DNA of 64,000 nt from Ahaetulla prasina (taxonomy: Eukaryota; Chordata; Lepidosauria; Squamata; Colubridae). Under the pieces are notes generated by a model. It searched no databases and was not told the DNA's origin. It saw nothing but the letters and a program-made list of their open reading frames with translations. The position numbers were made by a program, and so were the translations under genes. The stretch is taken from positions 135,712,580 through 135,776,579 of the forward strand of contig NC_080542.1 of assembly GCF_028640845.1 (NCBI RefSeq). Reading direction: 5' to 3'. This document shows, piece after piece, positions 2,891 to 57,844 of the stretch. Numbering within the stretch: the stretch's first letter is position 1; the number at the start of each line of letters is the position of its first letter.

Positions 2891-3079
2891 TATATGCATA
2901 CTCTATACTTCCATCCTGGTAAGGAATTTGTAAAATAACAAACTGTAGGGGTTTTAGTGAAAAAAATCTGAAAGGGAACATTATTGCTACATGGATTCAA
3001 ACTCTTCAGAGAACTCAAGGCACCAAAGAAAGATGGGGGGGGGATGTTTTTAATTTGAAATACACAACGGCCCTGTGAG

Positions 3080-26449: not shown

Positions 26450-26485
<36 letters not shown>

Positions 26486-30126: not shown

Positions 30127-30257
30127 CTTAGGTGATCCATATAGTTCTCTTTGAGGAGTCAAAAAGCAGACAGCTCATGACTTCTGATCAGGACACTAAA
30201 GTTGTGGCTGAACCGCAGGTACAGCAAGTGCAGGAAGTAAAGGATAGTTCTCCTCTG
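30127..30257 (+). CDS. LARP4B: LARP4B exon 2: 5' UTR tail and first coding exon (residues 1-27)
   Basis: LARP4B is a cytoplasmic RNA-binding protein that binds poly(A)-binding protein and AU-rich mRNAs and supports mRNA stability and translation. This exon has 50 bases of 5' UTR, then ATG at 30177, encoding MTSDQDTKVVAEPQVQQVQE and seven more residues. The first six residues (MTSDQD) match the known LARP4B start, which fixes the initiation codon. The acceptor is TTTTTGCAG and the donor CTG|GTAAGT at 30257/30258, phase 0. As I recall it, human LARP4B has about 20 more residues between this exon and the PAM2w exon, and I could not find them here. The whole canonical protein from this window is 714 residues. 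Confidence 0.93.
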
Positions 30258-32954: not shown

Positions 32955-35900
32955 CAGTTTTAAAGTGAAGTAGTTGTATGCAGAAAAGAGCTTACAGCTC
33001 TGGGACTTGCAAAGGAGAACTTAAAATGGGCTGCTGTTTCACTAAAGAACCAAATAACAGCCATAATGAGAAAATGAGCCTGCTGCAGAAAAGTATAGAA
33101 GAGGAAACCTCTGAAAATAGGATAAGTAAAACTTTAATTTCAGTTTTAGAGGCTAAGGAAAAAATGGAATTGCACGTAATCCAAGAGGCAGATTGCCTAG
33201 AACCTACCATTTATAACGACTGTACAGAATCAATTAAGCATCCTTCAGCCCATCGTGTGGGATTTGTTGGAAACATTTCTAGTAGGCAGTTTAAGCCTCA
33301 TTGGTTTAATACAGAAAGAAGTTTGAATAAGTACGATCGTTTACCCGAAACTGAATTAACAGTCGGGATTAATGATAAAAAGCTAACAGAAAAAAGCAGT
33401 CACAATAATCAGTTTGTGAATAATGTAGGCAATCATATTAATAGTAATAGTGAAAGTGAATTGATTCTCTCGGAAAAGCAATGGCATTCATTTGAAAATG
33501 CTTCTGCTTTGTGTGTGCCGATGGCTTTAAATGAAGAAGGTTTGTTCCTAGAAGCTCTAAATGCTTATGGTGTAATGAGCAAGAGTTCCATGCCACAAGC
33601 TGAAATGGAGACTGTTGAAGATAATGATGCGGTTTCAAGTAAAATGGATAAGGAAATATCAGCGTTGACAAACTCTGTATGTTTTGACATAGATGGACAT
33701 CATAGAAATGTCAAAGATGAATTCTATAGCATTTGTATAATTGATGATGATGTGAGAAATGAAGAAAGGCAAGCAATCACTAATGAAGAGTCTATTACCA
33801 CTGTACAATCATCCGCTATTCAGGAAGACTGCAGTTTAACATACCCGGTAGAAGATAGGGAAGAACTCTTAGTTGAGGAGGCAGGGCGTGTGCCAGTTAA
33901 TATCAGCATTCTGAAAGATGCTAATCTGATGAACAATAACACAGTGGAAGAAAGTGAAAAGAAAAAAGACCCTCCCCTTGGCTTGGTGAATGACGGCTAT
34001 GAAAGCATAGCAACATGCGGTGTAGAGGCACAAGCACGTGTTGAAGAAGGACCTCAAAATAGAACTTGGAAAATGGATATGCTTAATAGTAGAATCATTT
34101 TGAATGAATCAGATTGTGAACACAATTCTTCAACGCCTCTGCTTGTGGAAAAAGGCGTAGACATAAATTCTTTGCAATTCAGAAAGTCAGGGTATACATG
34201 CCATTCCAGCCCGGATAATGGCAGGAGTAGTCATGATATTAAAGTAAATTTTGAACATCATAAAAATCAGAATATTGAAGAATATTGTAGATGTCTGTTA
34301 TCAGAGCCACTGATTTCATCAAAATGTAGTCATGCAGCCATTGATTCAGTTTTTGTAAGACATACCAATACAGAAATTGTAAGGCAAGGAAATAGGCAAA
34401 AATTAGAAAACAAAAACAAGTGTTTTAGGAATGAGAATGAAGTTCAGACAATTTCTGATTGCAGCAATGAGGAAATATCAGATATTTCTGAACAGAATAA
34501 TCTAGAAAATCTCTTAAAATATGATATAGTTTCCCATCAAGAAGCTTCATGCAGTCCTGAAAACCTGACTGAAAATGCTCTCATCATGCTTTCAGCATCA
34601 AATGATTTCGTTTCTGGAGCAGAACAAACACATGTACCAGAGTTTAACAATAATGAAAATTGCAACTCTATAAGAACTGCTCAGCAATTCCAATCTCAGA
34701 TAAATATCATACCTTCAGAAAACAGTGGTTTAAAAGGAGGTCTGCTGGAGAACAAGGAGACTACAAGTTTTTCAGACCTTTTCAACATAAATGTTGAAGG
34801 TAAGAACATTGAAAAAGAAAATTGCTTGCAAGATCAAACCCAGCAAAATTTCTTAAAAAGCAGCAGTAAAACATATGAAAATTCCAATGCACTTAATGAA
34901 GACAGACATTGCTCCATCTGTTTGGCATGCCCTGAATCAAATGAGTTGGATTTGGACAGGAAACAGTTAAAGGCATGGAACAAATATATATTCTATAGGC
35001 CTGAAGATCAAATAAATGTAGTCCCTTCAGAAAACCTTATAAATAGAACCCATGAGACACCGTTCAGTGGAGTGGAATCTAAAGATTCTGATGATTCCAG
35101 TATTAGTTTTAGTTGCATATTAAATACCAGTAATAATTCACCAGCGATGCATAGTGTATCTCCAGAAGCACAATACATGGTTGCAGATCTGAAAGCTCCT
35201 AAAAATCTGCAGACTTGCATATCTAACAGCCAAAGTGAAACCGTGAGATTTCCTATATCAGATTTAATAGCAGAAATAGAATACAAAGAAACATCTAGCA
35301 ATTTAAATGAAAAAAGTTCAGATATTTATAAAAATAGCTCTTCACTTGAACAAAGTAAAACAGCAACTATATGTCCACATGATCATTTTTCTAGATTTTC
35401 TGTTCATTATGATAATTTAATAAAAGAAAACACAAAGAATTCTGCTTTTGAAGATAACCATGATGAATTAAAAATCAAGATAGAAAGTTCTTCTAAAGTA
35501 AGACCTAAACGCAGTGGGAGCTGTGGTTTGGAAACTTATGAAGATGCAGGTCTGAGTTTTATTGACCCCAGACAAGAAGATAAGTATGCTGCTATTCCTT
35601 CCTACGAAATACTGCTTTTCCCTAATAATGAGCAAGAATCTGAACAGGACAATTCAAGCAACGTTTTAGATCTAATGGAAGATATATTAAAGGACTCTGA
35701 TAATATGCAAAAACTATATCTAAGAGATTCAGAAGATGATGATGCATATCCGGTTTGTCAGTCTGCCGAAATAAACAGATTGTTTTCAGCCACTGATATT
35801 ACATGTGGTCAGGAATGTATGAGCTATCTATGGATTGATTCTTTTAACAAAACTGAAAATGCGTGTCTGTCAGCTGGCACAGTGCAAAACCAAGGTGGAG

Positions 35901-36037
35901 ATCTAAGAGTTTCTCCTTTTCATATGGAAAAATATCCTTATCATTTGTTAATGAAAGAAAAGAGTGCTATTTGGGGATGGCGAGAGAGAGATAAAGAATG
36001 TGTAAGTAATTGTAGCTTCATTCATGAACTTTCTTAG
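32955..36037 (+). CDS. Long alternative exon of LARP4B, or independent gene: 1003-residue ORF starting MGCC
   Basis: An acceptor, TTGTCTCCCCAG|CAG, lies at 32954/32955 (tandem NAGNAG). The ORF is open from 32978 to a TAG at 36035-36037. An in-frame TGA at 32966-32968 excludes reading in from upstream. The first ATG (32978) has a poor context. The second (33026, AAAATGG) is strong and gives MGCCFTKEPNNS, with Gly2 and Cys3/Cys4 suited to N-myristoylation plus palmitoylation, so I take it as the start. The protein is Ser/Asn/Glu-rich, apparently disordered, with short hydrophobic islands near its end (PSYEILLFPN, DLMEDILKD, EKYPYHLLMKEKSAIWGW). At 36001/36002 a GTAAGT donor follows codon 992 in phase 0. 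Splicing there to 38858 would continue as ...DKEC-EPAKVSELNPNA into LARP4B (1679 residues). Unspliced, 11 more residues follow. I do not recognise the family. The coding call is strong because of its length in AT-rich DNA. Linkage to LARP4B is inference. Confidence 0.85.
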
Positions 36038-38857: not shown

Positions 38858-39002
38858 GAACCAGCCAAGGTTTCAGAATTAAATCCTAATGCAAAAGTGT
38901 GGGGGAATCACATGGTACATGTGGAAGCAAGTGGTACTGAAGGGGGTGTGAGCAAACCCTGGGAAGAAGTAACAGATCACCCACCTGATTCCTGTAAAGA
39001 AG
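38858..39002 (+). CDS. LARP4B: LARP4B exon with PAM2w motif (residues 28-76)
   Basis: This encodes EPAKVSELNPNAKVWGNHMV and onward to DHPPDSCKE. LNPNAKVW (residues 35-42) is the PAM2w motif of LARP4/4B, a variant of PAM2 with tryptophan in place of phenylalanine, used to bind the MLLE domain of poly(A)-binding protein. The acceptor is TATTACAG and the donor GAAG|GTACAA, phase 1. It starts in phase 0, so it can follow either the MTSDQD exon or the long MGCC exon. Confidence 0.95.
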
Positions 39003-39564: not shown

Positions 39565-39726
39565 CATTAGAGGCCAATGGTGATGGTGACAAAAAACACC
39601 AGAACGAATCGTTAAAAGAACATCAAGAACCATCACTATCTGTTCCATTATCAAATCAAACAGATATGAACTCTTTGGCTCTAGATCATGCAGAGTACAA
39701 AACTGTACATGAAAACACTGAGTCAG
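39565..39726 (+). CDS. LARP4B: LARP4B exon (residues 76-130)
   Basis: This encodes ALEANGDGDKKHQNESLKEH and on to KTVHENTES. ANGDGD and DMNSLAL are conserved LARP4B words. It is an acidic linker between the PAM2w motif and the La motif. The acceptor is TTTTCTCCACAG and the donor TCAG|GTATGG. Phases are 1 in and 1 out. Confidence 0.93.
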
Positions 39727-40589
39727 GTATGGAAAAGGTCCTTGCTCATTCTTAAAGCTGTAAGAGTTTCTATAAGAGTTTATAGAATGATCTTCAGGAA
39801 ATTTGCACATTCTAGCTACTGAAGAAACACACCTGAGCAGGACTGAATTGTAGGCATTGTTACAGATGTGCCTATATGAACAATACCTGTGACTATTAAA
39901 TCCATAACACCCTATTTAGTAGGAAGTGCAGAGTAATAACTTTATCAGCACACCCATGTATTACGACTCATCAAATTGGAATTGTTGCTTGCCTTGTTAG
40001 GTTTGTCCTGCTTACACACATACTATAAGAACAAATTGCTTCCTGTCATCTTCCATTTTAATATCAAGCTGAATGTACAACTGTATTTTTTTTAAAATGT
40101 TACATTCCACACCCCCTTTCAGCTTAGCACAGAACCACCCAGAGTCGAGTCAGGTAGAAAGGTTTTGCCTTACAGACAATGTTGGGAGTTTGGATTTCTG
40201 ATAGTAAATATGAATGTAGAGTATGAGTCTGCATATTGTGTTATGCTACTAATTTCAGTTCTACAGTGAATTCATACCTCCAAAAAGGTTTGTGTACTTC
40301 AAAAATCCAGTTCCAAGAAAAGTTGAATTGGGTGGTCTTATCATGGCCAAGAAAGTTCCAGAGTTTCTTCTAAGCAGTTTCCTTCATGGTTTCTCATCCA
40401 CAGAGATCTTGCCAAACTAAAGGAAACTCCTTGCATCCTTATAAGATATACTTTGAGGATTTCTAGGGAGGAGCTGTCTTGACCTTCTCCCTCCCTCCCA
40501 ACCAAATTATCTAAAATTTGCTGTCTCTTATTCCTCTGGAAGGCATTCTCTCTCTCCTGGGAAACCAGATTACATTCACCACATCCCAG

Positions 40590-40668
40590 AGTCATCCCAT
40601 ATATAGCCATCCCAGAGTCACTTTGGACAGGAGAAGTGGGTGGCATATAAATTTAATAAATAAATACT
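40590..40668 (+). repeat. Diverged LINE 3' end with (AAAT)n tail
   Basis: GCCATCCCAGAGTCACTTTG is followed by a matching GGGTGGC arm, then ATATAAATTTAATAAATAAA. The arms GCCATCC and GGGTGGC pair with one G-U. The arrangement is the same as in the CR1-like stem-loops at 10.1, 23.0 and 28.0 kb, though the sequence has drifted. Confidence 0.65.
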
Positions 40669-41689
40669 ATGCAGATGTTCTTTAAATTAAATGTTTTGCA
40701 TATGATGGTCATAGGAAAAAAAATATTATGTAAGACATCGGTATATTTTCACTCCTCCACCAACATTTGCATATTTTCTGGCCTCTCTCCACACAGTGGA
40801 GATGAGGAAGAAAATAAACATAATCTTATTGTAACTGTTGAGCAAAGGTAGTTCATGCTGTCATCTTAACTCTTTTATACAGTATTTGGAAAATAGTTTT
40901 TGTATGATGAAACCACTGCCAGAAGGAGACGAGGTCCTGATTTGGGGTGGGGGTTAAAAGACAGACTAGCTTAGGATCCATTTGGGGAAGGAAACATTTG
41001 AGATCGAACCCTTAAGTCCATACCTGATGTTTCCCTAGGGAAGGCAGACAATCTGGTGTGATGCTTGTAAACTGGTGATCAACAATAAAGAAACCTATTT
41101 GACCCATTCCCAGAGCTATTCTGCTTGCTTGCACCTGACATTCCTGGATGCTTATATAACAATTTATTTTAAACTTATTTTGGAAGAATGGTGTTCATAC
41201 CAATATTTGTAATTTTTATTTGATGAGGTTATTTTTGAACCTTCTGATTTGTTCACAAACCATTGGAATGTGGTTAATTGGAAGTGCGCCTAGCTTTGAC
41301 ATTCCCTTGGTGCAGTTCTTCTTCATCACCGAATTGGCAGAATGACTGCTTTAGCTTGGTTTTAACCATATTCTTGTGACTATATGTGTATTTATTTTCT
41401 GCATGGAGGAGCTGGGAAAAGTGAATAAATAAACTTGCCCAATGACTTTGCATAAACTGGAGGTCTGTATAAAAGGAATGTAAACAAAAGATCTGAACAG
41501 TAAATAATAGCAACAAAATGCTTGTAGTTTGAGTTCTCATACCACAAGCATTTGCTCCACTGAAGGTTTTGGCATTTTATAAGCTGCTGCTATTCAAAGT
41601 AAGTATTAAGCCTGTCATGTTTGTAAGTCATGTCGGTTGTAAAACAAACACCTACATGACCAACTTGATTATAGAACCTTTATTTTTGC

Positions 41690-41792
41690 AGCCATCAAAA
41701 CTTTGGAACCAGATCATAAATACATCTGGAGAGGTCCATCATAACTTCAAATGGTCACTCAGTGACCAGTCATAAACCAAGGACTATATGTA
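41690..41792. repeat. pogo-like MITE right-end fragment
   Basis: CATCATAACTTCAAATGGTC and CAGTCATAAACCAAGGACTA followed by TATGTA are the right-hand portion of the family. The left part is missing. Confidence 0.55.
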
Positions 41793-42464
41793 GCGTCAAA
41801 TAATAAGCACAATACTAGCTATGTTGCCTTAAAATTGTGATGGTTTCCTTAACCACTAGAAATAGTTAACGCAAACAAATATTTTTTTTCAATCATGTCC
41901 AATTTGTGCAAATTTCAGGTGCTGTTGCTACTAAAAGATCCAAAACAGTGATAGCTAATTATTGGAGGCCCTTAATTGTTTTCAGATACATAATACCAGT
42001 CTTAATCCAAAAAGTTACTTATTTTTTATGTATAAATGATTTCCTACAACCTGCTAATTTGGAAAGAAATTGTGAACAGATTGTGTATTAAATACACAAT
42101 ATACTCTTAAATATATTTTTGTTCATTGACTGTTCAGTTTAGGTAATTCCTCTTTTATCAAATATTTTTAAATTGTGGGATGTCCATGATTACCCTTCTT
42201 AAATGTAGCTTATCACCATTGACATATTTGTTTCATCTGCTTAGAATCAAATATCTTCGCTTATCTTCAAAACCTGAACCAGTTTAGATCTGGTTAATGT
42301 TTAGATAGGAATTTCCTGGCCAGTCTGAGTAGGAAGTTTAAAAAGAAGAAATATATGGAAAACAATTTCTATACTGATTTTTTAAAAAAAACCTGTAATG
42401 TCAATACTGTATGCCATAGTGGTAGACTATCTAGAGCAGTAAGATGGGTAAAGTTAAGATGAGT

Positions 42465-42595
42465 AAACTTCATGTCCCAGAATTCCAGCCATTATTGATT
42501 CTAGTATACTAGAATTATACTAGTATTGACTAGAGAATTCTAGGAGTTGAAGTCCACCCAAGATAAAATTGCCAAGATTGAAAAATCCTGATCAA
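42465..42595. repeat. Decayed hAT MITE remnant
   Basis: The inverted words TCCCAGAATTCCAGCCA and GAATTCTAGGAGTTGAAGTC, with TTGCCAAGATTG, belong to the CAGGGGTCTCCAACC family. Termini are too decayed to place. Confidence 0.55.
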
Positions 42596-42664
42596 GGTAC
42601 ATTGCTACTTTTATGAAGAATTGTATACCATTTTTTTTTCTTTATTTCTTGTTTTCCATTCTAG

Positions 42665-42746
42665 GGAGTAAAGAAGATCTTCGGCCAGAAGATCAAGAAG
42701 AGCTACGAGAAGCTCTTAAAAAAACACTGGAGTTCTGCTTATCAAG
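42665..42746 (+). CDS. LARP4B: LARP4B exon, start of La motif (residues 130-157)
   Basis: This encodes GSKEDLRPEDQEELREALKK and TLEFCLS. It is the N-terminal helix of the La motif; KKTLEFCLSRENL spans this exon and the next and is a strongly conserved LARP4/4B sequence. The acceptor is CCATTCTAG and the donor CAAG|GTAAAT. Phase 1 in, 2 out. Confidence 0.95.
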
Positions 42747-43707
42747 GTAAATATATAATGGATATAATATAGTCAAGCTTCTTGCTCTTGTAATAAGATT
42801 AAATGTTAATTAGGGTGGAATAGGCAATATAATTAAATATGAATGCCATAACCAATATGTTAGCCTTTGGACCGCATAGAAATTCATGATCAGGTAGGGA
42901 TATATTTATATGTTAATTTTATAGCTTGAAATTCAGAAAGGATTGGGAAGGAATGAAAATCCAATCACAAATATTTTATTTTCCTTAATTGTTTCATTTT
43001 CTTATCTTGATTTCTACAACTGAAACACAAAAGATAAAACCCAATTTTACAAGCTGCCAGCCATTTGCTAGGTATTCCAGGGCTCCCTATTACAGGAAGG
43101 TTTGTTATTTCAATGCTTTAGAAGAACTAATTGTTGAGAATAGATGCAAGTCAATTGTATGCTGTCGTCTGCACTAAAAAGGAATGTTTCGATACTGATA
43201 CCTTATTTTACTTATCATTCAATGTAAAGCACCAGACACTTTGAAATCTTGTATAGAATGACTTACATAGCAGTAATTTTTCAAAACTCCCCACATAATC
43301 TGATTAATGTTTAGTCTTTAATATAAAGCTGTAGCTTTAAATAAAATTTAATGAAGCCATGTGCCGCCTTCATGACTTACTAGAAGTTTGGTATATATCA
43401 CAATTGTTTTTTCTGTCTGCCTGGATATTGCTTTTTAAAAGCATTTGAAAATGGGCTACATTTGGCTTTCTGTGTCAAATGGTTCAAGAAAAGCAGGACT
43501 TGACAATCTTTAGAGGCAAAAACTTCAAGTGTGGCTATAATTATGTAATTTTGCAAGAAATGAGGCATTTAAAGTTAAAGAAACACAACAGTATCTTAAT
43601 ATTGAGAAATAATCTTAAAGGCAAGGGCAACTATTGGAATGTTCCACTAGGAATTGCATGGAGAGTTAATTTTATACTAATCCCCCCCCCCTTTTTTTCT
43701 TCTACAG
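42747..43707 (+). other. Intron
   Basis: AT-rich, ending in a long C/T tract (43681-43703) before the acceptor. No other feature was seen. Confidence 0.65.
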
Positions 43708-43844
43708 AGAGAATCTTGCTAGTGACATGTACCTTATATCGCAAATGGACAGTGATCAGTATGTGCCAATAATGACCGTAGCTAATCTTGATCACGTCAA
43801 AAAGTTGACTACAGATATGGATTTGATTGTTGAAGTGCTGCGAT
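43708..43844 (+). CDS. LARP4B: LARP4B exon, core of La motif (residues 157-203)
   Basis: This encodes [20 protein letters not shown], then [20 protein letters not shown] and IVEVLR. It carries the winged-helix core of the La motif. LARP4 proteins differ from genuine La in this pocket, which relates to poly(A) recognition together with the N-terminal region. The acceptor is TTCTACAG and the donor GCGAT|GTAAGT. Phase 2 in, 1 out. Confidence 0.95.
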
Positions 43845-44050
43845 GTAAGTCATGGCAAATCATGTATTATTTTTGCACCATACTTTAAAACAAAAGGGCT
43901 TAATTGAGATGGGCAAGGTCGAAAGTCATTTTTATTCTCTTAAGAAGCAATGTATCTTGAAATTGGAACACCAGGGGCGTGTTTAATAGGAAAGCTTTAT
44001 ACAATACTAAGTTGTTTTTATCTTAAACAGAGTCAAGTCCCTTTTTATAC

Positions 44051-44465
44051 CAGCAGTCCTTGATGTAGAGCCATAATCAGGACTGGAAGATTTTTTGTTA
44101 AACAGTACAGGCATTAAAGGAAGTATCATGTGGCCACACCCGAGTTTATGACCTTTATGTCCCAGTCATTAAGCAAATCCGTATAGCCATTAAGTGAAAC
44201 ATAACAATTGCAATTTGAGACCTCCCTTTCCCTCTTCCCATTAACTTTGCTTTTCGGAAGTTGGCTGGGAAGTTCACAATTAGAAATCATGTGACCCCAG
44301 GATTCTGCAGTCATCACAAAGCCAAGCTGATTGCCAGTACCCAGATCTTGGTCATGTGATCGCTCACGTGTCATAAGTGTGAGGAATAATCATAAGTCAT
44401 TTATTTCAGTGCCATCATAATTCAAACAGTCACTGAATGAATGATCATAAGTCAAGAACTACCTG
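44051..44465. mobile_element. pogo-like MITE
   Basis: The left end is TACCAGCAGTCCTTGATGTA and the right end CATAAGTCAAGAACTACCTG before TA. Internal words GACCTTTATGTCCCAGTCAT and ATCATGTGACCCCAGGATTC fit the family in the reverse orientation. Confidence 0.75.
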
Positions 44466-45000
44466 TATTTATTCACTAGCCTGAGTCAGGGTTCAGGAAT
44501 GCACTGGCTTCTTCTAGTGAACTATGTGCCTGCTGGCTTCTTCTAGTGAACTATGAGTTTGCAAACAGCTGTCCTGAATAATGGTGGTTTTCCTGAATAC
44601 AGTGTGCATTGAGTGCCTTACCTGAAGCTTATTTGCACTCTCAAGAATATCTGCAGTAGTTAGAAAGCCTTTAAGGAGTTGGAAACAGGATAAAATGACT
44701 TCTTTTCTAAAATGACTCTCCCAGCACCTCTTAACATCAAACACATATTTTTCTGAGAGTGCATGGTTGAAATCCAGGAAGCTTCTTTTGGGAGGTCTCC
44801 TTAGCTTCATCTCAAACCCCTTTTCCACATCGGATTAGAACAGCTGTGTATTGCTGTTTAAAGTTTAGATGCGGTAGATAGAGTAGTGAAGATAATTTCT
44901 ACCTTAGGCATTGAATGTGTTTGATAGTAAAGTGTCAGGTGAGCCTATAGCATGAAAAGTCAAATATATCTTATCTTCCTTCCCCAGAAGGCCTCTAGAT

Positions 45001-45136
45001 CAGGGGTGTCAAACTTGCACCATCATGGCAGCGTCACGTGACGTATCAGAACTTTTTCCCCCCTTCACTAAACCGGGTGGGGTTGGGGCCAGCACATGAC
45101 TCATCCAGTCCGCAGACCATGAGTTTGACACCTCTG
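45001..45136. mobile_element. hAT MITE, CAGGGGTGTCAAACT family
   Basis: The termini are CAGGGGTGTCAAACTTG and ATGAGTTTGACACCTCTG, with perfect 8-bp duplications CTCTAGAT (44993-45000 and 45137-45144). The element is 136 bp. Confidence 0.94.
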
Positions 45137-45918
45137 CTCTAGATGGTACACACCCTTAGCCTACCTTGATGTAGTTGTTAGGTAATGGCAGAACTAACTA
45201 CAGTCTTCCAGAGATATGTCTTTATCCCACATTCTCTCACTTAACCCAAGTGAGTCACAGAGCCTCCCAACCTATAGTCAACAGATAAAACTTTTAGTAG
45301 TAAAAGAAATAAAAATATGTTGCTCAATTCACAACAGCATCTTAAAGAAATCTCCTATAAAATTTTCAAAGGAGAATTTCAGTCTGAGGCAGATTTCAGG
45401 AGATGAATAGCATAAGAGACACAATTGCACAGAGATCTCAAAATTTATTAAACGTAGAATAGTTGAGCTTCCATTGTATGAAATATATATCAGAACCAAT
45501 AAAGTTCTGCTTTGTCCTTAGGAAATAAAGAATAACCTTAGCTCACTGCTAAATAGACATTTATCCTTATTGCCCAAGTAACACTCCAGTTGAATTGTAT
45601 GGGGGTTTTCCTGGTTCATTTTTAGCTGTGTTTGCTTTTTGCTTTTCTGGAAATTCCAAATTTAAATTGGAGCTAAAGAAGGTTTCTCCTTCCATCCATT
45701 CTGATATACTTTCTTTTATTAGTGATCAGTAATCAGTACTTTATAGGAGAACCAAGAACTATTATACTTCTCGGTCATGTTTCAATTAGATTGAATATAG
45801 ATTTAGGCAGTGTCCGGGAATGGTTATAACAGGGGGGAATTATATTTTTTAATTTATTCCCCTGTTAAATGTTTATTTTTAATCACAATTGAGCTAATGC
45901 AATTATAGGTTAATAATG

Positions 45919-46095
45919 AGTGGTTCTAACTTGCGGTCTGTGAACGCCTGGGGGGTGTTGATGTCATCAGATGGGGGTCTAAGAAGACTTGAAGAAATGT
46001 TATGATTTAAATCTTGAGTTAAGTCTTGCAGGTACGTGGCCACAAAATGTATTTAAAGGGGATCCGTGATGACGAAAAAGTTGAGAAACACTGTA
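45919..46095. repeat. hAT-like MITE, TGGTTCTCAACTT type
   Basis: The left side AGTGGTTCTAACTTGCGGTC and the right side AAAAAGTTGAGAAACACTG are imperfect inverted ends of a common vertebrate hAT design. No target duplication could be confirmed. Confidence 0.6.
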
Positions 46096-46177
46096 ATAGA
46101 ATATTAAAAGTAATAAATGCAAGATATAATTCTACCTGTTGATACCAAAGCAACAATATTGAGGGTTTTTTTTCCAG

Positions 46178-46281
46178 CATTGCCTTTAGTCCAAGTAGAT
46201 GAAAAAGGTGAAAAAGTCAGGCCAAACCAAAATCGCTGCATTGTAATTTTGCGTGAAGTACCTGAATCCACTCCAATTGAA
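46178..46281 (+). CDS. LARP4B: LARP4B exon (residues 203-237)
   Basis: This encodes [20 protein letters not shown] then [15 protein letters not shown]. It joins the La motif to the [11 protein letters not shown] is the first RRM strand (RNP2-like position). The acceptor is TTTTTTTCCAG and the donor GAA|GTAAGT. Phase 1 in, 0 out. Confidence 0.95.
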
Positions 46282-46435
46282 GTAAGTATATTATTTCATC
46301 AACAGAGTTTTTAAAGGTTTATTTTTTAAATTGATGAAGATAGTAAAACACTAATAAGGAGGATACCTTGAGTATTAGCTTTACTAGTTCATGACCTGTC
46401 TTGAAATTAAGCAAATGTCAAGCCTCCAAGTAACG

Positions 46436-46865
46436 TGTCTCCAAAAATAAAGTCCAAGGCATCCGTCTTCCTTTTCAGATCCATTTATTAGAAACACATT
46501 GAATTGGCACGGACTTGGTATAATTCCGACTCTGAACCGGATCTTGAAGTACACTCGATAAAAGCATAAATTAGAAACTTCCCCCTTGATTCACAACCTC
46601 CAATCAATTATCAGTCCAACAACCCAGTGATTCCAAACTCCACCTTCAGCCAGCTGCAGGTGTCTTCTCTCTTCCCATGGGAAAGGAATGGAATAAAGAG
46701 GAAAACATTCCCTCTTTATCTTTGCATCCCCCTTTCAACAGTTAGAAAGTGGTGAGCCTGAAATATTTATAAAATTCAGTTACCACAAATCTAAAAGCTA
46801 ATAGAAAAAGAGTACAAAGGCTACAAGAAAATATGGCTACACATATGTCGTCCTCAGGGTCGACA
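46436..46865 (-). mobile_element. Ty3/Gypsy 3' LTR
   Basis: A 430-bp segment is bounded by TGTC...GACA inverted termini. Read on the - strand it begins TGTCGACCCTGAGGACGACA, contains a polyadenylation-type AATAAA, and ends TTTTTGGAGACA. A purine tract, AAGGAGGGCAGCC, immediately precedes it on the - strand, as expected for the polypurine tract. It follows the chromodomain-bearing end of pol at 46975-47130. The 5' part of the element is missing, so target duplications cannot be tested. Confidence 0.85.
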
Positions 46866-46974
46866 GGCTGCCCTCCTTCAAGTGAAAAGAGTCTGGGAAA
46901 GAGAAAACCATAAAAGATTAACTCTAACCTCCCTGCCATCCCCAGGAACCCCTTATGGGTTATGAGGATCCTTC

Positions 46975-47130
46975 CCATGAAAACTTTTAATCAGTCTATC
47001 AGCATTCACCTTCCAGCTTTTTATCCAGGTTGCCTCTAAAATAGGATATCCTTTCCAGTGTATTAAATATTGCAATTCCCCCTTATAAATACGGGAATCT
47101 ACAATTAATTTCGCCTCGTAATGTTCATGA
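46975..47130 (-). pseudogene. Gypsy integrase C-terminal chromodomain fragment
   Basis: In one uninterrupted - strand frame, ending at a TAA, the sequence reads EHYEAKLIVDSRIYKGELQY, then LIHWKGYPILEATW, then a tail with NADRLIKSFH. This is the chromodomain signature of chromovirus-type Ty3/Gypsy integrases (hydrophobic strand, HWKGY, TW). Only the last 50 or so residues of pol remain. It lies about 42-197 bases upstream of the LARP4B exon at 47172. Confidence 0.85.
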
Positions 47131-47171
47131 CCTGCAATTAATTAATTAATTAATTTCTTTATTTATTTAAG

Positions 47172-47282
47172 GAGGTCCAAGCACTCTTCAAAGGCGACAA
47201 CCTGCCTAAGTTCATCAACTGTGAGTTTGCCTATAATGACAACTGGTTTATTACATTTGAGTCTGAAGCGGATGCACAACAG
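47172..47282 (+). CDS. LARP4B: LARP4B exon, RRM core (residues 238-274)
   Basis: This encodes [20 protein letters not shown], then [26 protein letters not shown] corresponds to the RNP1-type strand of the atypical LARP4 RRM. The acceptor, TTTATTTAAG, lacks the usual C before AG. The donor is CACAACAG|GTAAAC. Phase 0 both sides, 37 codons. Confidence 0.95.
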
Positions 47283-48168
47283 GTAAACTTTCTTTTTTGT
47301 ATGTGGGTATGTATACATTTCTGCATACATTATTTTGAATTACCTATGTCAGAGACTGTATGATTCAGGTTAATCATGGTTCAAGTACAGTACTATGATG
47401 AGAACACAACCAAAGAAGACCTCAGCTACTAAGTGACAATAAGGGATCATTCTCCCATGTTTGGAACAAAATGCTGACTCTGTTATGCAAATAAGGATTC
47501 TATAATTAAATGAACTAATTATTTCCCCCAGTTAATTTGGCAGTTGGCAAATAATTAAAGGTAGTCACCAAATAGTTAAATAAGTAGCCACAGGCAGTGT
47601 TGTCATATACTTGTAAGTTCTCCAGTTGGGAAGGTATTTGTAATTTTAATAGGTACGCTAAGTCCATTGGAAGCATAGCAAATAGTTTATTTCTCTCTCT
47701 CCCCCCCCCCCCACATCCTATTACCTTCTTGATAGAGTTTGGAAGTCTAATGAAAAGGAGCCTGAAGTTAACAGTTCCCCAACTGCTATAAGATGTTAAT
47801 AGTATCACTTGGGTTCAATTCCCACTAAAATGAGTTATATAACTTGTTCCTTTGGCTTTGTTAAATCCAAAATGCATATTCTGTGATTGTCAAGTTTGTC
47901 TGGATTTCTCTCAAAAACATTTTTCAACCCCATAATTGCAAAAATTTCCAGTGCTTTCTCTAGCTGATTCTTTTTCACAATATGAGGTTATTGCCAGATC
48001 AAAATAAACACTAAAAAATTGATGTGTTTCCTAATATGGAGCCTATAATACGTTATTTGTAAATTTGAATCACATTTGTAAATTTTACCTTAGGTAAAAA
48101 GGTATTCATGCTTTTATTCCCATTAATTCACTTGCATCGTTTCAAACAAGTGTATCTTTCTTTTAAAG
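47283..48168 (+). other. Intron
   Basis: It contains a CT/C-run at 47691-47712. No other feature was seen. Confidence 0.65.
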
Positions 48169-48222
48169 GCTTACAAATACCTTAGAGAAGATGTGAAAAC
48201 TTTCCAAGGAAAGCCAATTAAG
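48169..48222 (+). CDS. LARP4B: LARP4B exon, RRM end (residues 275-292)
   Basis: An 18-codon exon encodes AYKYLREDVKTFQGKPIK, the last helix and loop of the RRM. The acceptor is CTTTTAAAG and the donor TTAAG|GTAACT. Phase 0 on both sides, so skipping would keep frame but truncate the RRM. Confidence 0.95.
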
Positions 48223-48309
48223 GTAACTGAATTATTTGAGAATTTGAAATTATAATTGGGATAATTTTGAACTGCATCTTCTAAGAATATAATCTTCTGT
48301 CATTCGCAG

Positions 48310-48522
48310 GCAAGAATAAAAGCAAAAGCAATAGCTATAAATTCATTTTTGCCAAAGAATGGCTACAGACCTGTGGACATGAATATCTACGCACAACAGC
48401 GTTATACAACATCATTTGCATACATACCTCCAGTATATGGACCCCAACAGCAATTTCCACTATATAGTTTAATTGCACCACAAGCCTGGTCTACAACACA
48501 TAGCTATATTGATCCGTCATTG
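48310..48522 (+). CDS. LARP4B: LARP4B exon (residues 293-363)
   Basis: This encodes ARIKAKAIAINSFLPKNGYR, then a Tyr/Pro/Gln-rich stretch with YAQQRYTTSFAYIPPVYG and PQQQFPLYSLIAPQAW. It completes the RRM and starts the region in LARP4 proteins that contacts RACK1. The preceding intron is only 87 bp. The acceptor is TCATTCGCAG and the donor CATTG|GTAAGC. Phase 0 on both sides. Confidence 0.95.
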
Positions 48523-49741
48523 GTAAGCACTGGGATATCATTTTTGTTTGTTTGTTTTATGTTCATGCTATTGCAGAAGATTTGGGGAGAAAACTTACAC
48601 AATTGTATTTTACAACCATTCTATATATTATTCCTCTGTACCAAAAACTTCTTATGTATCTATACTTAGAGGAGATGATTATGGTCAAGTTTTCCGCAAT
48701 CGTATTCAGTAAGGCACAGGAAACTTTTAATGGGAAAAATAAAAATCCTTTGAAACCGGACAGTATAGTCTTAAAGCCTTTAGTATGTTTGCAGTGTTTG
48801 CAAAGTGCGATTTTGAAACCTGTGCTTTTTCTTTTTGAGTTGGACATCAGGACATTTCCTGAAGTAGCTAATTTTAGAGTTAAATCTACATTACGCGATC
48901 TAATACTATGATTCAAACTCAGAACATTCTGTTTAATAATCAAACAAGTTAAAATTCCGGACAACTTGCTGGATATATAACATGTGTTTATTTTATATTT
49001 TAAAACTTACAGGATAAATTGGATTGATAATGTTGCCTTCTTGATGTATATTAATTTTTATAAATCCATTATACTAAGCTTACTAAATAAAATCTCGTAG
49101 GATGTAAAATTGCATACTGAGACATTTTGTCATCTCTCTTGTATACTTGTATGCTTATTTTCTTCATGTAAATTTTTGTTCAGAAGAACCAAGGTTTTAG
49201 ATATATTAGTGTACAGATAGTCCTCGACTTAACAGCAGTTCATTTAGTGACCATTCAAAGTTACGACGACACTGGAAAAAGTGACTTATGACTGTTTTTC
49301 ACAGTTACGACCTTTGCAGCACCCCATGGTCATGTGATCAGCTTTTGTAACCTTCTGACAAGCAAAATCAATAAGAAAACCAGATTCATTTAACAACTAG
49401 GTCTGTTGTATCATATCGCTTGCAGCAATTCACTAATAACTGGCAAAAAAGGTCATAAAATGGGGCAAAATTCACTTAATATCTCACTTAACAACAGAAA
49501 TTTTGGGTTCTATTGTCGTAAGTTGAGGAATACCTGTACTTGTATTGTTTTATAAGTGTATTTATAAATATATTGTAATTGGTACGTAATGGTTTTGGTA
49601 TGAAATGAGAATATTAATAAGCACAAGTTTGATGCTTATGAGGAAAGGTAAAGTGAACTAATGAAACCATTGTGCTATTTTCAGAACTTTATGGATATAT
49701 TGAAAGTTTCAAATCTATATCTGAAATTTTCTCTTCTATAG
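48523..49741 (+). other. Intron with a pogo-like MITE
   Basis: Apart from the element at 49214-49536 nothing was recognised. Confidence 0.65.
49214..49536. mobile_element. pogo-like MITE, complete termini
   Basis: TA|CAGATAGTCCTCGACTTAAC at the left and CGTAAGTTGAGGAATACCTG|TA at the right give a clean TA target. Internal words TTTAGTGACCATTCAAAGTT and CATGGTCATGTGATCAGCTT are typical. Confidence 0.9.
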
Positions 49742-49848
49742 GTCACCCCATTTCCAAATACTGGATTTATCAATGGATTTACAGCTCCTACCTTCAAGCC
49801 AACTGTTGCTCCACTTGCTACTCTTAGGCAGTATACACCAAGAACCAG
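49742..49848 (+). CDS. LARP4B: LARP4B exon with GC donor (residues 364-399)
   Basis: This encodes VTPFPNTGFINGFTAPTFKP, then TVAPLATLRQYTPRT. The frame and conserved continuation (RNPSKS) require the exon to end at ACCAG, so the intron begins GCAAGT at 49849. That is the strong consensus AG|GCAAGT used by GC-AG introns. No GT nearby restores the frame. Phase 0 in, 2 out. Confidence 0.93.
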
Positions 49849-49947
49849 GCAAGTTCTGTTCACACATTTTTGCCTACCTGGACAATATGCCTAGTGCAAA
49901 TAAACTCATATATCTCTCAGGGATTTCAATCACAAAATGTCACAATT

Positions 49948-49983
<36 letters not shown>

Positions 49984-50395
49984 TCTCTTAAAAAGGCATA
50001 CACAACAAGAAAGGCAGGTAAAATGGAATAGGGAAATATTTGTATAGAAGACTAAGAACCAAAGAAAGTGGCGAATTAGCTGTAAATATTTTATAGCAAA
50101 TTATGAATTCTATTACAAAATGACTATTGAGTCATAACTGCTATCTTTGTGCAGAGAAGTATGTTTCCAAAATAAACTTTGGACTGTAGTACCCATCATT
50201 CTAAAGATGTCTCTAGGATTTGGGCTTGGCCCAGAAGCATTCTTGGAAATACGGATTGCGGTTGAGAGTAGTGCCGAATACTGTGATCAATTGATCTTAG
50301 ACGCCAGTAAAAGCTGTGCATGTTGATGCAATTCTAAACATTTCCTGAAGATGGCATATGATAGCTCTGAAAGGTTTTTATTTTTCCCTGTCCAG
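49849..50395 (+). other. GC-AG intron with (TC)n tract
   Basis: It begins GCAAGT and ends CCTGTCCAG. A (TC)n tract lies at 49950-49980. Confidence 0.85.
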
Positions 50396-50647
50396 AAATC
50401 CCAGCAAATCATACCTACGGCATACAATTCCTACTGTAGACAGAGGGACTGGATTGCTAGAGAGCCCTACAATATTCAATCTTTCTGCTGACCGATTAAT
50501 CAACGGTGTCAGGACCCCACAAACCAGGCAGCCAGGACAAAACAGAACACGGATGCAAAATACTACAAGCTACATAAAGCGAGATGTAGGGAGCGGGCGA
50601 GTAGAATCCATGGCTTCAGATTCATCCCCCAGCTTAGGCAGAGGAAG
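50396..50647 (+). CDS. LARP4B: LARP4B exon (residues 399-483)
   Basis: This encodes NPSKSYLRHTIPTVDRGTGL, LESPTIFNLSADRLINGVRT and onward to DSSPSLGRGR. It is a low-complexity, Ser/Arg-containing central region well conserved with LARP4B (LESPxIFNxxADRLINGVR). The acceptor is CCCTGTCCAG and the donor GGAAG|GTGCGT. Phase 2 on both sides. Confidence 0.95.
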
Positions 50648-51759
50648 GTGCGTATTGAAATTTAGGGTAAAGCACTAGCCCCTGAGGTTGGGAATGTTGT
50701 GTGTTTCCATGTTAGAGATTTCAAAAAGACGAATTCTGTGGAAATAAGGCAAGAAAAAACTTCTCAGTTGAAAAGAGAAAGATCTAAACAAGCAGAACTA
50801 TTTGAAGTGAATTTGTATTTGATAGTATAATCAGTGGCAAGGCACTAAGGAGATTCTCAGGTCAAATTAAGCCATGATGATTTAGGTCTCTTCAGTATGT
50901 GAACTGACTTTTGTTTATAGTTTCAGTTATCCAGCTAAGAAGTAATCTATCTATCTATCTGTCTGTCTGTCTGTCTATCTTTCTATCTATCTAAAGATAA
51001 ACTGAGTAGAAACATAACAGCATATGGAAAGTAGTGATGCAGATGTCACTTTATGTGATGATATGCGCAATAATACTTTGTGCATAACTTACAACTACTT
51101 ATCAAAAAAGCTGATTGCTACTATATTGAATTGTTTATTAAAGTGGATCTAATTAGCGCAGCTTGGAAAACTAATGGCGAAGGAATTACTTCCAGAAACT
51201 TTGAAAAATGTTTTTATTTTAGAAAAAGAAAAAAAGTTATTTAATAAGCATCATACTTTTTGTTTTTTAAAATATTTAAAATAAAACAATGTACATCTAG
51301 ACTTAACAAAGTAATCTTCAGTGAAAGTTGTGACATTTATGGACTCAGGATATTGAACATTTCTGATATTCCAGAAGCTGGAGTGCTACAAATAAATGGA
51401 AAGTATAGATTTGAAAATTGGTAACAAGGCCATTCAGACGTGTATAAGACTTCCTTTTGGAAATTTGGGACACCATACAAACTCCTCCATTTTCTACATC
51501 CTTCCAAAATTTTTCACATAATGACTCCAAGAGGTTAGGTGAGAGAGACCCGGAGAGAGTGTAGGTTACACTAGGCTGAATAATAGTGATTTGCCCAAGA
51601 TCAGAGTTCACATACCTGAGAAAAAGAATTTTGAGCCTGCTTCTTTGACCTAATTGAAAGTTCTGACAGCTATGCCCCAGGGGTTTTATCAGTGTAACAG
51701 TATAATCACATTTAAAATGAATGAATAAATTCTAATAATAATGATGTCTGTCCTTCCAG
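50648..51759 (+). other. Intron with (ATCT)n/(GTCT)n microsatellite
   Basis: Tetranucleotide repeats lie at 50946-50992. The rest is AT-rich and featureless. Confidence 0.7.
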
Positions 51760-51805
51760 AAAAAACACTTATGGCTATCGAAAAAAGAGAGATGACAAGT
51801 TCGTG
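51760..51805 (+). CDS. LARP4B: LARP4B small exon (residues 483-498)
   Basis: A 46-bp exon encodes RKNTYGYRKKRDDKFV, matching the conserved GYRKKREEKF-type basic patch. The acceptor is GTCCTTCCAG and the donor GTG|GTGAGT. Phase 2 in, 0 out. Confidence 0.92.
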
Positions 51806-53549
51806 GTGAGTACGCATTGTCTAGTTATTCACTTGAGACTGGAAGATTCATGACTAGAAGATTCTTGACTAATATAGTAGTGCAGCCTTGGTGAGGAATG
51901 ATTTCACATGATGTTCAGTGGTGATTTAAGCGATAAAAATATCTAAATATCTATTCTGAATTACCCCAAATCATCATAATGGCGAAGTTGATGACGTTGG
52001 TGACTCATATTTCCGTTAGATTTTTAAGTTGTTGAAGCAATTTTACAAAGCATCCTACTTCTAGGTCCAGGTCTGTTTGAATTCCTTTTCTAACTAATCT
52101 GTTCTATCAAACAGGAGAAAATTCTCCCATGGCAAAATAACTGATTCTCATTTTAGTCACAGTGGTTTCCTACAAATTCCTTGATGTTTTAGCTGATTGT
52201 GTTCTTACTTTTCTCCTTATCTATAATTTCCATCTTTTTTTCCTTATGCTTTTAAGTGGATCTTATTTTAAAAAATAAATCTCCCTTTCCGCTTTCCCCA
52301 CAAAACAGAGATATGCTCACATTACTTTTTTCATATTTTGGCCATATTAGTAAGAAGAAACACTTAATTCTCCCATTTAAAATATTACAGTGGTTATTGT
52401 TTTCAGCTTCCTGTAGAAAAACCAGGTCGAATCATAATTAAAGGAAGCTGTGTGCTGCAATGGCTGTTTTTTTTTAATAACTTTAATTGAAATTTTTTTA
52501 GAAAAAAATAAGATTGCCTAATATAGGATAGTATAAAGTAAGAAACAAAAGAAATCAACAAGAAAGAAAGTGCAAAAAAACAAAAGTTGAAGAAAAATAT
52601 ATATAAAAAAGAAAAAAATACACAGCTTCACAGCTGATAAAAGTACAATTACATTTTAATCTCATTCTCTAAAGTTATATAATACTCTTCTTTCTCTAAT
52701 GTATCCTGATAAATCTTAAGTTCATTTTTTTTTCATTTTTACACAAAAAGTTCCTAAGAGCTTTCTCTCTCTCTATCTACTAATAAATGTAAATAGTATC
52801 TTTTTTTGTAATCAAAGAAATTAATTTATCCATGTCTGCAAGATATGTCAATTTTGCCAAACATTCCTCCATAGTGGATAGTGTTTAATCTTTCCTTATC
52901 TCTGGTTGACTATTTTTCATGCATAAAATTGTCAAGTTATGCCCAGAAAATCCGCACCAACTCCTTAAAGTAAGAGCTGATTTTTTTTATTCACCTGGGT
53001 TTCTTGAAATAAAGATTATGGTAAAAGGGCTTTTTTTGTTGTATTACCTTTCCTTTGGGACAGCATCCCTTGGAGAATCACTCCCCTCCCACCATTCTTG
53101 CTTTTGCGACAACCTTAAAAATATGGCTGTTCTCTAAGGATTTAGTTATGTTATTTGGTAGACATGTTTAGGTTGGGGTGATATGGAAGACTGTTTTCTT
53201 CACGGTTTCTTGGTGATGGATCTTCTTTTATAGCATGTTAATTCCTCTGTTGTTAATTTTTGTTAAGAATCATTGTTTATGTTAGGCAGTCTGAAATGGA
53301 TGGACAATGCTTATAATGCATTGTATTTCATTCTAACCTGTGAATGATATTTAAATCTATATCACCTACTCAGACATAGCCTGTTGACAGGAAAGAAATG
53401 TATTTAATAAATAGAAAGCCAACTGATATTCATACTTTATGACTGCTTGAGTGTGAGGTACGCAAATTTTGATTGTTACCTACAAGTTTGTGCCCTTTTT
53501 CTTGAAGGTTGCTGTTGCCTTGCTTTCTTATTCTACACTTCTCTTGCAG
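51806..53549 (+). other. Intron with A/T-run-rich segment
   Basis: Positions 52470-52960 are dominated by T-runs and A-runs (AAGAAAGAAAGTGC, AAAAAATAC) and might be the antisense tail of an old LINE. I cannot name it. Confidence 0.5.
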
Positions 53550-53711
53550 AGAGGACAAACGCAGTCTCCACCCACTACAAAACCACCATCTCCAAGTTTT
53601 GAGCTGGGGTTATCCAGTTTCCCTCCCTTACCTGGAGCTGCTGGCCATCTAAAGACCGAAGACTTGTTTGAAAACAGATTGTCAAATGTGAATGTATCAC
53701 CAAAAGAAAAA
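53550..53711 (+). CDS. LARP4B: LARP4B exon (residues 499-552)
   Basis: This encodes RGQTQSPPTTKPPSPSFELG, LSSFPPLPGAAGHLKTEDLF, ENRLSNVNVSPKEK. SFELGLSSFPPLPGAAG and KTEDLFENRLS are hallmark conserved LARP4/4B blocks. The acceptor is CTTCTCTTGCAG and the donor AAAAA|GTAAAA, a weaker donor. Phase 0 on both sides. Confidence 0.93.
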
Positions 53712-54835
53712 GTAAAAATTCACAGATGTTGGGCAAGGGTGCATTTGGGGACACACACTTGTTCACTCTGAGGATCATAATTCTTCATTGGTCCTTGTGA
53801 TTGTTTTGAGAAAAGAGAGCGGCTCAGGAACAACACCCATCTTATAAAGTATTGCTTTCTCCAGCAGGCTATTTTTGGTAGTGCTGTTGTACTTGATAGT
53901 AGCCTTGCCAATATCATTTGGCTAGAAGCCTGCTTGGCATGGATGTTTAAGTATCTTTAAATCCTGCTCCTGAAGTCAGATTTTTCCCAGACTGGTATAT
54001 AATGGGGTACATAATCTTCAGCCTGGAAAAGGGTCACACTTCAAAACACTAGGTGGGAATGCTTACTCTTACATGTATTGTTGAACCTCTCAGATACTGA
54101 ACTGTGTGGCATCAAATATTAACTCTACTGTTTATTTCTTGCAGTGGATAGTTTCTGAAATAGGTCTGTATTTGGCCAAGATTAAAGCAATATATCATAT
54201 TCAGCATTGACTTTGATGCAGATTGACATTATTTTAAAAATGTTTGCTATTGAACCATGCTTAGTTTCTGAGGTAAACATGGCTTAATCTTTCTTTGAGA
54301 TTTTAGTAATCCACAACAGTAGTTGGGCAAGGCTGCCACAGGTTGTCCTCGACTTACAAACACAATTGAACTCCAAATTTCTCTTGCTAAGCAAGGCAGT
54401 TGTTAAGGGAGGTTTGCCCAATATACGACCTTTTTTACCAAAATTGTTAACCAAATCACTGCAGTTGTTAAGCAAATCATTCATTAAATAAATCTGGTTT
54501 CCCCATTGACGTTACTTGCTGGAAGCCAGCTAGAAAGATTTACAAATGGTGATCTCATGATGTTGAAATGCTGCAACTGTCATAAATATATGCTGGTTGC
54601 CAAGTATCTGAATTTTGATCATGGGATGCTGCAGTGGTCATACATATGAAAAACAGCCATAAATCATTTTTTTCAATGATGGTATAACTTCAAACCATCA
54701 CTAAATGAATCGTTTTAAGTCAACAACTACTTGTACTATCTTTGTTCTGCCTCTGAAGACAATGGTTTGGTTATAAATATATTCTGCTATTGAATTGAAA
54801 TGTACTTTAAATGACTTGAATTTTGTTTTTCTCAG
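53712..54835 (+). other. Intron with a pogo-like MITE
   Basis: Only the element at 54339-54733 was recognised. Confidence 0.65.
54339..54733. mobile_element. pogo-like MITE
   Basis: The left end is CAGGTTGTCCTCGACTTACA and the right end TAAGTCAACAACTACTTG before TA. Internal words AAATTTCTCTTGCTAAGC and CACTGCAGTTGTTAAGC fit the family. Confidence 0.85.
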
Positions 54836-54954
54836 GGCATCAGTGTAGGTACAAACACAGTACCAGCTGGAATTCCACGTGAGCTTTTTTTGCCAGCTTC
54901 TTCTGCTCTGCCAGGGACATCTGAAGCATCTTCTTCCGCATCCAAAGCTACTGA
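54836..54954 (+). CDS. LARP4B: LARP4B exon (residues 553-592)
   Basis: This encodes GISVGTNTVPAGIPRELFLP, then ASSALPGTSEASSSASKAT. It is a poorly conserved Ser/Ala-rich linker, placed by its flanking splice sites (TTTCTCAG and CTGA|GTAAGG) and continuous frame. Phase 0 in, 2 out. Confidence 0.85.
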
Positions 54955-55295
54955 GTAAGGACCTCATAATACCAAGCTTTGAACATATTGTTTTGAATCA
55001 ACATTTTACATTTTTCCATCGTCAAAAGGCTGGATATTATTCTGTCAATAGCTTTTGGGCCATTTAATAAACAATACTGCTTATGTAATAGCAGCAGCCT
55101 AGAATTTTTGTCTGAATTGTACAAAAGCACATAAGTCAATATTGAAAAAATTATCTGTGTGTCTGCAATATAAACAGGTTTCTTACAATAAAAATAGATA
55201 GTAGTGATTTGCTATTGCTTTGGGTGTCACTGGGCAGAAGATAGAATTGAGGTATTTTCATTGTACTCACTTATTTCTTGTATATTATTTTACAG

Positions 55296-55404
55296 TGATC
55301 CCAAAGCTATCGAGAAGCAGAAAGAAACCCAAAGTACTCAAAGACATTGTTGCATTGTTACTACTGCTTCTAAATCAGTACAAGTCAATGGGGATCTTCT
55401 AGCA
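55296..55404 (+). CDS. LARP4B: LARP4B exon (residues 592-628)
   Basis: This encodes DDPKAIEKQKETQSTQRHCC, IVTTASKSVQVNGDLLA. DDPKxxEKQ and KSVQVNG are conserved LARP4B words. The acceptor is TTATTTTACAG and the donor TAGCA|GTAAGT. Phase 2 in, 0 out. Confidence 0.92.
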
Positions 55405-55949
55405 GTAAGTGCATTTTGATTTTTGTAAGACGTTGATGAGAATCTTTTGGCTTTAATATTTTTAGTTATACTAGAGGAGAGATTTGTTATCACAAAAACA
55501 CACCATGCTAAACTATGTGATATATTTGTTTTCACTTAATATATTGTGCAAATCCAGTTTCTCTGATGCTTTTTAAAAGAGCCATCATGTTTTCAAAGTG
55601 CTCTCTAACCTCAGAATTCCAGTTGTCTTACAGATGGCAGGCATACAAGTCTTAAAATTACAACATGTTGAATCAAAAAGTTACAATTAAATTCCAGCAG
55701 CAAAGTAGTCAGAATGTGTGCCTGGGCAGTAAATCCATCCTGTCAAAAGCAGATATGTTAATATCTATCTTGCATGCTGAGAATCAAGAATTAAACCATA
55801 ATGAACCATTGTTTGTTACACAAATCCAGCCATCTTAATTTAAAAGCCCTGGGTTATGGTTCACTCTATTGTTTGAATTAAGGCAGTTGAGGTTTATTTA
55901 CCAGCCATGTTAACCAGCCTGTTCATGACTGCTTCAGCCATCCTCCTGA

Positions 55950-56215
55950 TAGATTGCTCATATAGGTAGCCTGTCAACTTCGAAACGACCAGCCCACCCG
56001 GCCCCAAAAAGTGAAAGAGGCCACCCAGACAGGCACCTGAGAGGTCCAAGGTATTCCATCGTCCACCGGAGGGGTTGATTGGGCCAAGGCTTGGTTGCTG
56101 CCTTCCCTGTTTTCAGTAGGTCTGTGATCGGCAGGGCTACCTCTGCGAACAAGGGGATGAACTGCCAGTAGAAGTTTGCAAAGCAAATGTGCAACTGCCA
56201 TAAAGGTAGTCAGAC
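55950..56215 (-). pseudogene. Ty3/Gypsy pol fragment (RT-RNase H hinge)
   Basis: The - strand frame gives CFANFYWQFIPLFAEVALPI, TDLLKTGKAATKPWPNQPLR and W. This is the conserved GFANFYRRFI...PLTDLL...W stretch after the reverse-transcriptase domain of Gypsy elements. It is short and flanked by unrelated sequence. No LTRs are nearby. Confidence 0.8.
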
Positions 56216-56329
56216 ATCTAACAGTACATGGACCTCCTATTGCATTAGTAGGTATGTATGCTTAAGTCCTCAGGTGCAGCCACTCTACAATGGACGTCAC
56301 TTTTGCGAGGTTTTTTGGTCGGAACTATG

Positions 56330-57540: not shown

Positions 57541-57844
57541 TGTAATAATGCCTTACATTATTTTCCCAAATAATTTCCAGAGAGGCTGAAACTGCAGTAT
57601 GATTTTTATCACTCTGATGCCTATCAGGGATTCAAGGGAACAATTGAATGCCTTATTCTATTTTTGCTTCAATTCTTCAGAAAGACAAAAAATTTCTTAA
57701 GGAGTAACTTTTCACATTGAAGAATCACAAGCCTAAGCAAGACCTTCGTCTTCTTTTGTGCAGAATTAATATTTCTGGTAGTGATGAGATTGCTCAGTTT
57801 TATTCAATTTTTATTTTTGTGTGTGTGTGTTTTTAATAAAGCAG

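Follow-up and report, generated by a model that had tools for sequence, protein, structure and literature searches.

A 3-kb open reading frame (ORF) lying in intron 2 of LARP4B in the snake Ahaetulla prasina is almost certainly a real and conserved alternative first coding exon of that gene. The whole stretch of DNA that was analysed (64,000 nucleotides, hereafter the window) carries this exon at 32955..36001 of the + strand, as delimited by an acceptor sequence whose use is putative, a donor and the junction to exon 3. Joined phase 0 to phase 0 with exon 3 and read on through all 15 LARP4B exons downstream, it gives a single stop-free frame of 1679 residues; the canonical protein, which starts in exon 2, has 714. 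The frame, the phases, the homology and the conserved junction and start reported here were computed. The whole reading, in which the alternative exon gives LARP4B an isoform with a lipid anchor and a long flexible tether, is one that we regard as probable.

The stop-to-stop open frame extends over 32969..36037 (+) and comprises 1022 codons, or 1019 from the ATG at 32978 and 1003 from the ATG at 33026, which opens the sequence MGCC. We compared this length with 64-kb windows simulated 60 times under a second-order Markov model, in which the longest stop-free run was 164 codons on average and 216 at most, so that the earlier description of an ORF open for about 1019 codons, unlike random ORFs, is confirmed and its length is far beyond chance. 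The other five frames contain 34 to 141 stops each between 33026 and 36001. Moreover, neutral divergence was simulated from the window's ORF (ungapped, with a transition bias of 2). At 85% amino-acid identity, as observed to Naja, 8.2 in-frame stops were expected and 1 of 1000 runs stayed stop-free, and at 78, 43 and 36% identity none of 1000 did; given that database proteins are open by selection, these figures are support and not proof.

Both simulations, together with the conservation described below, rule out a chance ORF. The broader explanation that the frame is such an ORF, or else a fragment of a transposon or retrogene without function, is exceedingly improbable: reverse-transcriptase fragments do occur elsewhere in the window, but the ORF itself holds no known domain (no Pfam match above cut-off), and its position and ends are conserved from snakes to mammals. 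The two reverse-transcriptase ORFs (24062-25141 and 28202-29341, both on the - strand; Pfam RVT_1, E 1.2e-31 and 3.1e-20) lie upstream of LARP4B exon 2 and are probably LINE fragments. Between them, a stop-to-stop frame of 274 codons (26256-27080, +) had no Pfam match.

Sequence matches of the ORF to PDB entries were found only at E 0.57 and 0.6, and sub-threshold matches to a TXD17-like thioredoxin and to YoeB were taken as chance. When 39 aligned homologues were scanned against Pfam, one matched Spindle_Spc25 (E 3.2e-4) and P0014 matched nothing; a La domain was detected in 8 of these 39 proteins, which are a mixture of fused and unfused forms.

The boundaries of the exon can be followed in the window. 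An in-frame TGA at 32966, just inside the putative exon start, means that no coding sequence located before 32969 can be continuous in frame with the ORF. The acceptor reads TTGTCTCCCCAG ahead of 32955 and CAGTTTTAA from there onwards, and its tandem CAGCAG (TTGTCTCCCCAG followed by CAG) implies that the exon may begin at either 32955 or 32958. A leader part (32955-33025, +) precedes the ATG of MGCC and is followed by the coding part of 992 codons, MGCC...RDKEC (33026..36001, +), defined by the ORF translation and by the homologues. The sequence GTAAGT occurs only once in the ORF, at 36002..36007 (+), in phase 0 after codon 992 (TGT/GTAAGT), where read-through would yield V-S; the intronic tail from this donor to the first stop (36002..36037, +) is unconserved by tail scores.

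LARP4B exon 3 (38858..39002, +, from the exon model) is preceded by ...TATTACAG, starts in phase 0 and includes the PAM2w SELNPNAKVW (38873-38902, +), a motif described in PMC7356810. The other 14 LARP4B coding exons, which encode the La motif, the RRM and the C-terminal part, extend over 39565..58105 (+) and end in a stop codon at 58103-58105. The first-pass annotation had placed a GTAAGT donor at 36002 after codon 992 and a phase-0 exon at 38858, and both are confirmed in the sequence; the frame and length of its predicted product, 1679 residues joined to the PAM2w, La motif and RRM of LARP4B, were reproduced. Upstream, the coding part of canonical exon 2 (MTSDQD...SSPL; 30177..30257, +) is followed by a GTAAGT donor at 30258, in phase 0, and a CpG-rich stretch at 3001..5000 (no strand assigned; G+C 0.61 and 0.56, CpG observed/expected 0.96 and 0.61) is probably the LARP4B promoter and exon 1. 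Two details of the exon model stand apart, namely an intron that appears to open with GC (CAG/GCAAGT, at 49848-49850) and a very short intron of 87 bases (48223-48309).

To place the exon among its relatives, we collected a set of 79 proteins, 13 from a search with the window's ORF and 66 from a search with the marmoset N-terminal region, plus the window's own. The 13 matches to the ORF include uncharacterized proteins of 945 to 1148 residues from Naja, Rhineura, Podarcis and three turtle species, as well as four snake LARP4B models, marmoset LARP4B isoform X4 and two more proteins. The marmoset query added fused LARP4B models from platypus, elephant, anteater, horse, bats, rodents, seals and monkeys. 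A profile search that scored the 7992 candidates sharing most words returned 5 matches, all of them known, and is uninformative on birds, amphibians and fish; a scan of viral contigs found no relatives with DNA.

Exon 3, recognised by KVSELNPNA, is present in 39 of the 79 proteins and absent in 40, the window's included. In 36 of the 39 that have it, the end of the alternative exon (IWGW...) is joined directly to exon 3, and the remaining three (P0018, P0060 and P0069) differ at the junction by an insert or internal splices. The homologous junction occurs in mammals from platypus to primates and in three snakes with only parts of the ORF, some of the snake models showing ...RDEEC followed by EPAKVSELNPNA, as the first-pass annotation had predicted for the junction. 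The proposal that the ORF splices in frame into LARP4B exon 3 is thereby supported, through homologous sequences, by 36 of 39 proteins, snake models included.

None of the squamate proteins collected has the complete exon of 992 residues in fusion with exon 3. Crotalus tigris X2 and X4 combine the MGCC start with a C/EPAKVSELN junction and are missing most of the interior, Liasis keeps the last 150 residues of the exon and Laticauda about 100. The C. tigris proteins P0007 and P0008 omit the segments from ENRI to SNDLV and from NVEG to KYPYH, which reflects either intra-exon splicing or an annotation artefact. The fused forms come from databases as models, most of which bear X-isoform numbers, and we take them to be automatic predictions.

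The proteins lacking exon 3 point to the same boundary. A V-S dipeptide is found 8 to 10 residues past the first W in 36 of these 40 (34 counted by script, P0030 and P0071 by eye), matching the GTAAGT site, and is missing from P0002, P0003, P0012 and P0065. This is what a GTRAGT donor would give in read-through, although the count was made on protein sequences. Across clades, the conservation score over the 39 aligned rows is high up to V-S and then falls to zero for the eight residues 995-1002, so that conservation stops where a splice would close the exon and not at the stop codon.

This limit bears directly on the idea that intron 2 of LARP4B houses a separate single-exon gene, with its own promoter and poly(A) site, whose product would be a free, acylated and disordered protein of 1003 residues ending at 36037. 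Separate uncharacterized protein entries in Naja, Rhineura, Podarcis, three turtle species and Molossus speak for such a gene, as does the stop lying just 12 codons past the donor. However, conservation ends at the donor, the read-through tails beyond it vary in sequence and length between proteins, the junction is used in nearly all proteins that carry exon 3, and the first AATAAA/ATTAAA after the stop lies 931 bases on, at 36968; we therefore consider a nested gene quite unlikely, even if a shorter intron-retention form could exist beside the fused form. An undescribed isoform or a gene fused with LARP4B had been offered as joint readings at first pass; the isoform part is upheld, while a fused gene, like the independent gene given there as the alternative, is disfavoured, because conservation stops at the donor and the read-through tails vary.

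Conservation within the alternative exon was assessed on an alignment of 39 of the 79 proteins, which were picked for completeness and of which nine were grouped as sauropsid. It is concentrated in islands at residues 1-45, 97-109, 225-248, 845-861, 877-892 and 982-994. Short conserved motifs in this alignment surround EFYSIC (33698..33769, +), DPxQxDKYAAxPSYE (35558..35608, +) and VLDLMEDIL (35654..35701, +), and the exon closes on IWGW...C (35969..36001, +), in which W983 is found in all 39 rows and W985 in 38. Identity to four mammals is 25-28%, as against 69-79% for the LARP4B body, which marks the middle of the exon as fast-evolving. The almost invariant WGW at the exon end (35969-36001) lies 22 residues ahead of the PAM2w tryptophan (38873-38902). 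Its WG/GW pairs presumably recall Argonaute-binding motifs.

An AlphaFold2 model built from 39 sequences had a mean pLDDT of 38.2, with 963 of 1003 residues under 50, values that fit disorder but also poor modelling. Residues 32-51 (33119..33178, +) form its sole helix, and the 992 residues are otherwise predicted to be disordered.

The window's exon begins MGCCFTKE and that of Naja MGCCFAK. MGCC is kept in 72 of the 79 proteins, the other 7 models starting elsewhere. Among these 72, residue 6 is S in 63, T in 3, G in 3, C in 2 and A in 1, and residue 7 is K in 70 and R in 2. Dual acylation calls for an N-terminal Met-Gly, a small residue at position 6 and a Cys near Gly2, all of which are present in the same 72 proteins. 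Moreover, MGCCFSKT serves as a laboratory membrane tag in PMC10709653, PMC9411534 and PMC7704634; two of these papers state that it directs myristoylation and palmitoylation, and one that it derives from modified MARCKS and puts GCaMP6s at the plasma membrane. Its first seven residues, MGCCFSK, are identical in 61 of the 79 proteins, and the window matches six of the seven, residue 6 being T in place of S; in contrast to the engineered tag, which has T at residue 8, the LARP4B exon has E, G or D there. The N-terminal 992 residues had been left unrecognised in the first-pass annotation, which holds insofar as no known domain is present but fails for the first residues, given their match to this MyrPalm tag. 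As judged from MGCC conservation and likeness to the tag, MGCCFTK (33026..33046, +) is quite likely a dual acylation signal, with predicted N-myristoylation at Gly2 and palmitoylation at Cys3 and Cys4.

If translation began further upstream, or if alternative acceptors were used, the exon would still be real and fused, and the protein would carry an unacylated, long disordered extension acting in the cytosol. An in-frame ATG at 32978..32980 (+), which the Crotalus models use as their start, would abolish the acyl signal if used; among the 72 MGCC proteins, 10 (with the two Crotalus models among them) begin 6 to 21 residues before MGCC, and a Desmodus model skips MGCC altogether. Nevertheless, the residues upstream of MGCC differ between snakes, bats and seals, MGCC itself being retained, and the upstream ATG of the window has the weaker context (TGTATGC, with T at -3 and C at +4, versus AAAATGG, with A and G, at the MGCC codon). 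An unacylated extension is thus unlikely, and the MGCC ATG at 33026 was taken as the working start.

How the alternative exon is combined with exon 2 is constrained by the reading frame. Exon 2 joined to 32955 reads QF-stop, and joined to 32958 F-stop; an in-frame cassette exon placed after canonical exon 2 is excluded in the window, as a TAA is met at once. In this snake, exon 2 and the alternative exon would therefore be mutually exclusive first coding exons, both feeding exon 3. Other routes are predicted in other species, as in the Desmodus model, where exon 2 leads to a further piece and then to the alternative exon, without MGCC.

The early stop produced by exon 2 plus the alternative exon, like the fast-evolving middle, would also fit an exon that is mainly regulatory, whose inclusion reduces canonical LARP4B by making transcripts that are unstable or badly translated, and whose peptide sequence matters little. 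A frame of about 1000 codons held open from snakes to mammals, with conserved islands at both ends, is unexpected on that account, which makes it very unlikely.

Returning to the alternative first coding exon, we infer its transcript use in this species, and the acylation, localisation and function of its product, from the features above. The transcript would omit canonical exon 2 (ATG 30177) and take the exon at 32955 in its place; translation would begin at the MGCC codon at 33026, and splicing from 36001 to exon 3 at 38858 would complete the frame. The product would carry, in order, the dual acylation signal, the short helix, a mostly disordered stretch of about 940 residues with a few conserved short motifs, the PAM2w, the La motif and the RRM. 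Gly2 would be myristoylated and Cys3/Cys4 palmitoylated, and these acyl groups would keep the isoform at the plasma membrane or at endomembranes, where the flexible tether may let the half that binds PABP and RNA retain poly(A) mRNAs, stabilise them or translate them. We propose this membrane-tethering function as one that could equally prove right or wrong.

Compared with canonical LARP4B, a product of the same gene, the long isoform would share everything from exon 3 onward (PAM2w, La motif and RRM), while the 27 residues of exon 2 would be swapped for 992 with a predicted acylation signal. The PAM2w of LARP4B binds the MLLE domain of PABPC1 (PMC7356810). Given that, according to PMC11146010, mRNAs bound by LARP4B tend to be cytosolic, an anchored form would add a location. 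The sperm hexokinase HK1S offers a parallel (PMC4736023): an alternative first exon gives this isoform an N-terminus of its own, with Gly2 and a Cys close by, which directs an otherwise cytosolic enzyme to the plasma membrane. There, however, an enzyme bears a short tag and acylation has been shown, whereas here an RNA/PABP-binding protein bears a 992-residue disordered region and acylation is only predicted. A La-related protein is also tied to translation at a membrane in the case of LARP4, proposed in PMC12650760 to act with AKAP1 at the mitochondrial outer membrane; the same paper reports that LARP4 loss did not reproduce AKAP1 loss. In that system the membrane-bound partner is a separate scaffold, AKAP1, whereas the anchor would lie within the LARP4B chain itself.

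Long LARP4B isoforms are already present in public databases as numbered models. Among the papers listed from the open literature on LARP4B, its isoforms and its acylation, on LARP4 with AKAP1 and on acylated RNA-binding proteins, no title or abstract opening describes one. The fullest form of our proposal, for which we see the chances as evenly balanced, is that amniotes possess a second LARP4B, a PABP-binding, La-related mRNA stability factor with its own MyrPalm anchor and a disordered tether of nearly 1000 residues; poly(A) mRNAs would be captured and translated at the plasma membrane or at endomembranes, and the choice between mutually exclusive first exons would be the switch. If this holds, a gene that has been studied for its part in translation and cancer as a soluble factor would have a second product, with 992 N-terminal residues absent from the canonical form, and knock-outs, antibodies and constructs built on exon 2 would miss or misread this long isoform. 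Moreover, a change of a single residue (G2A) would then directly test the control of mRNAs at membranes by a lipid-tethered RNA-binding protein.
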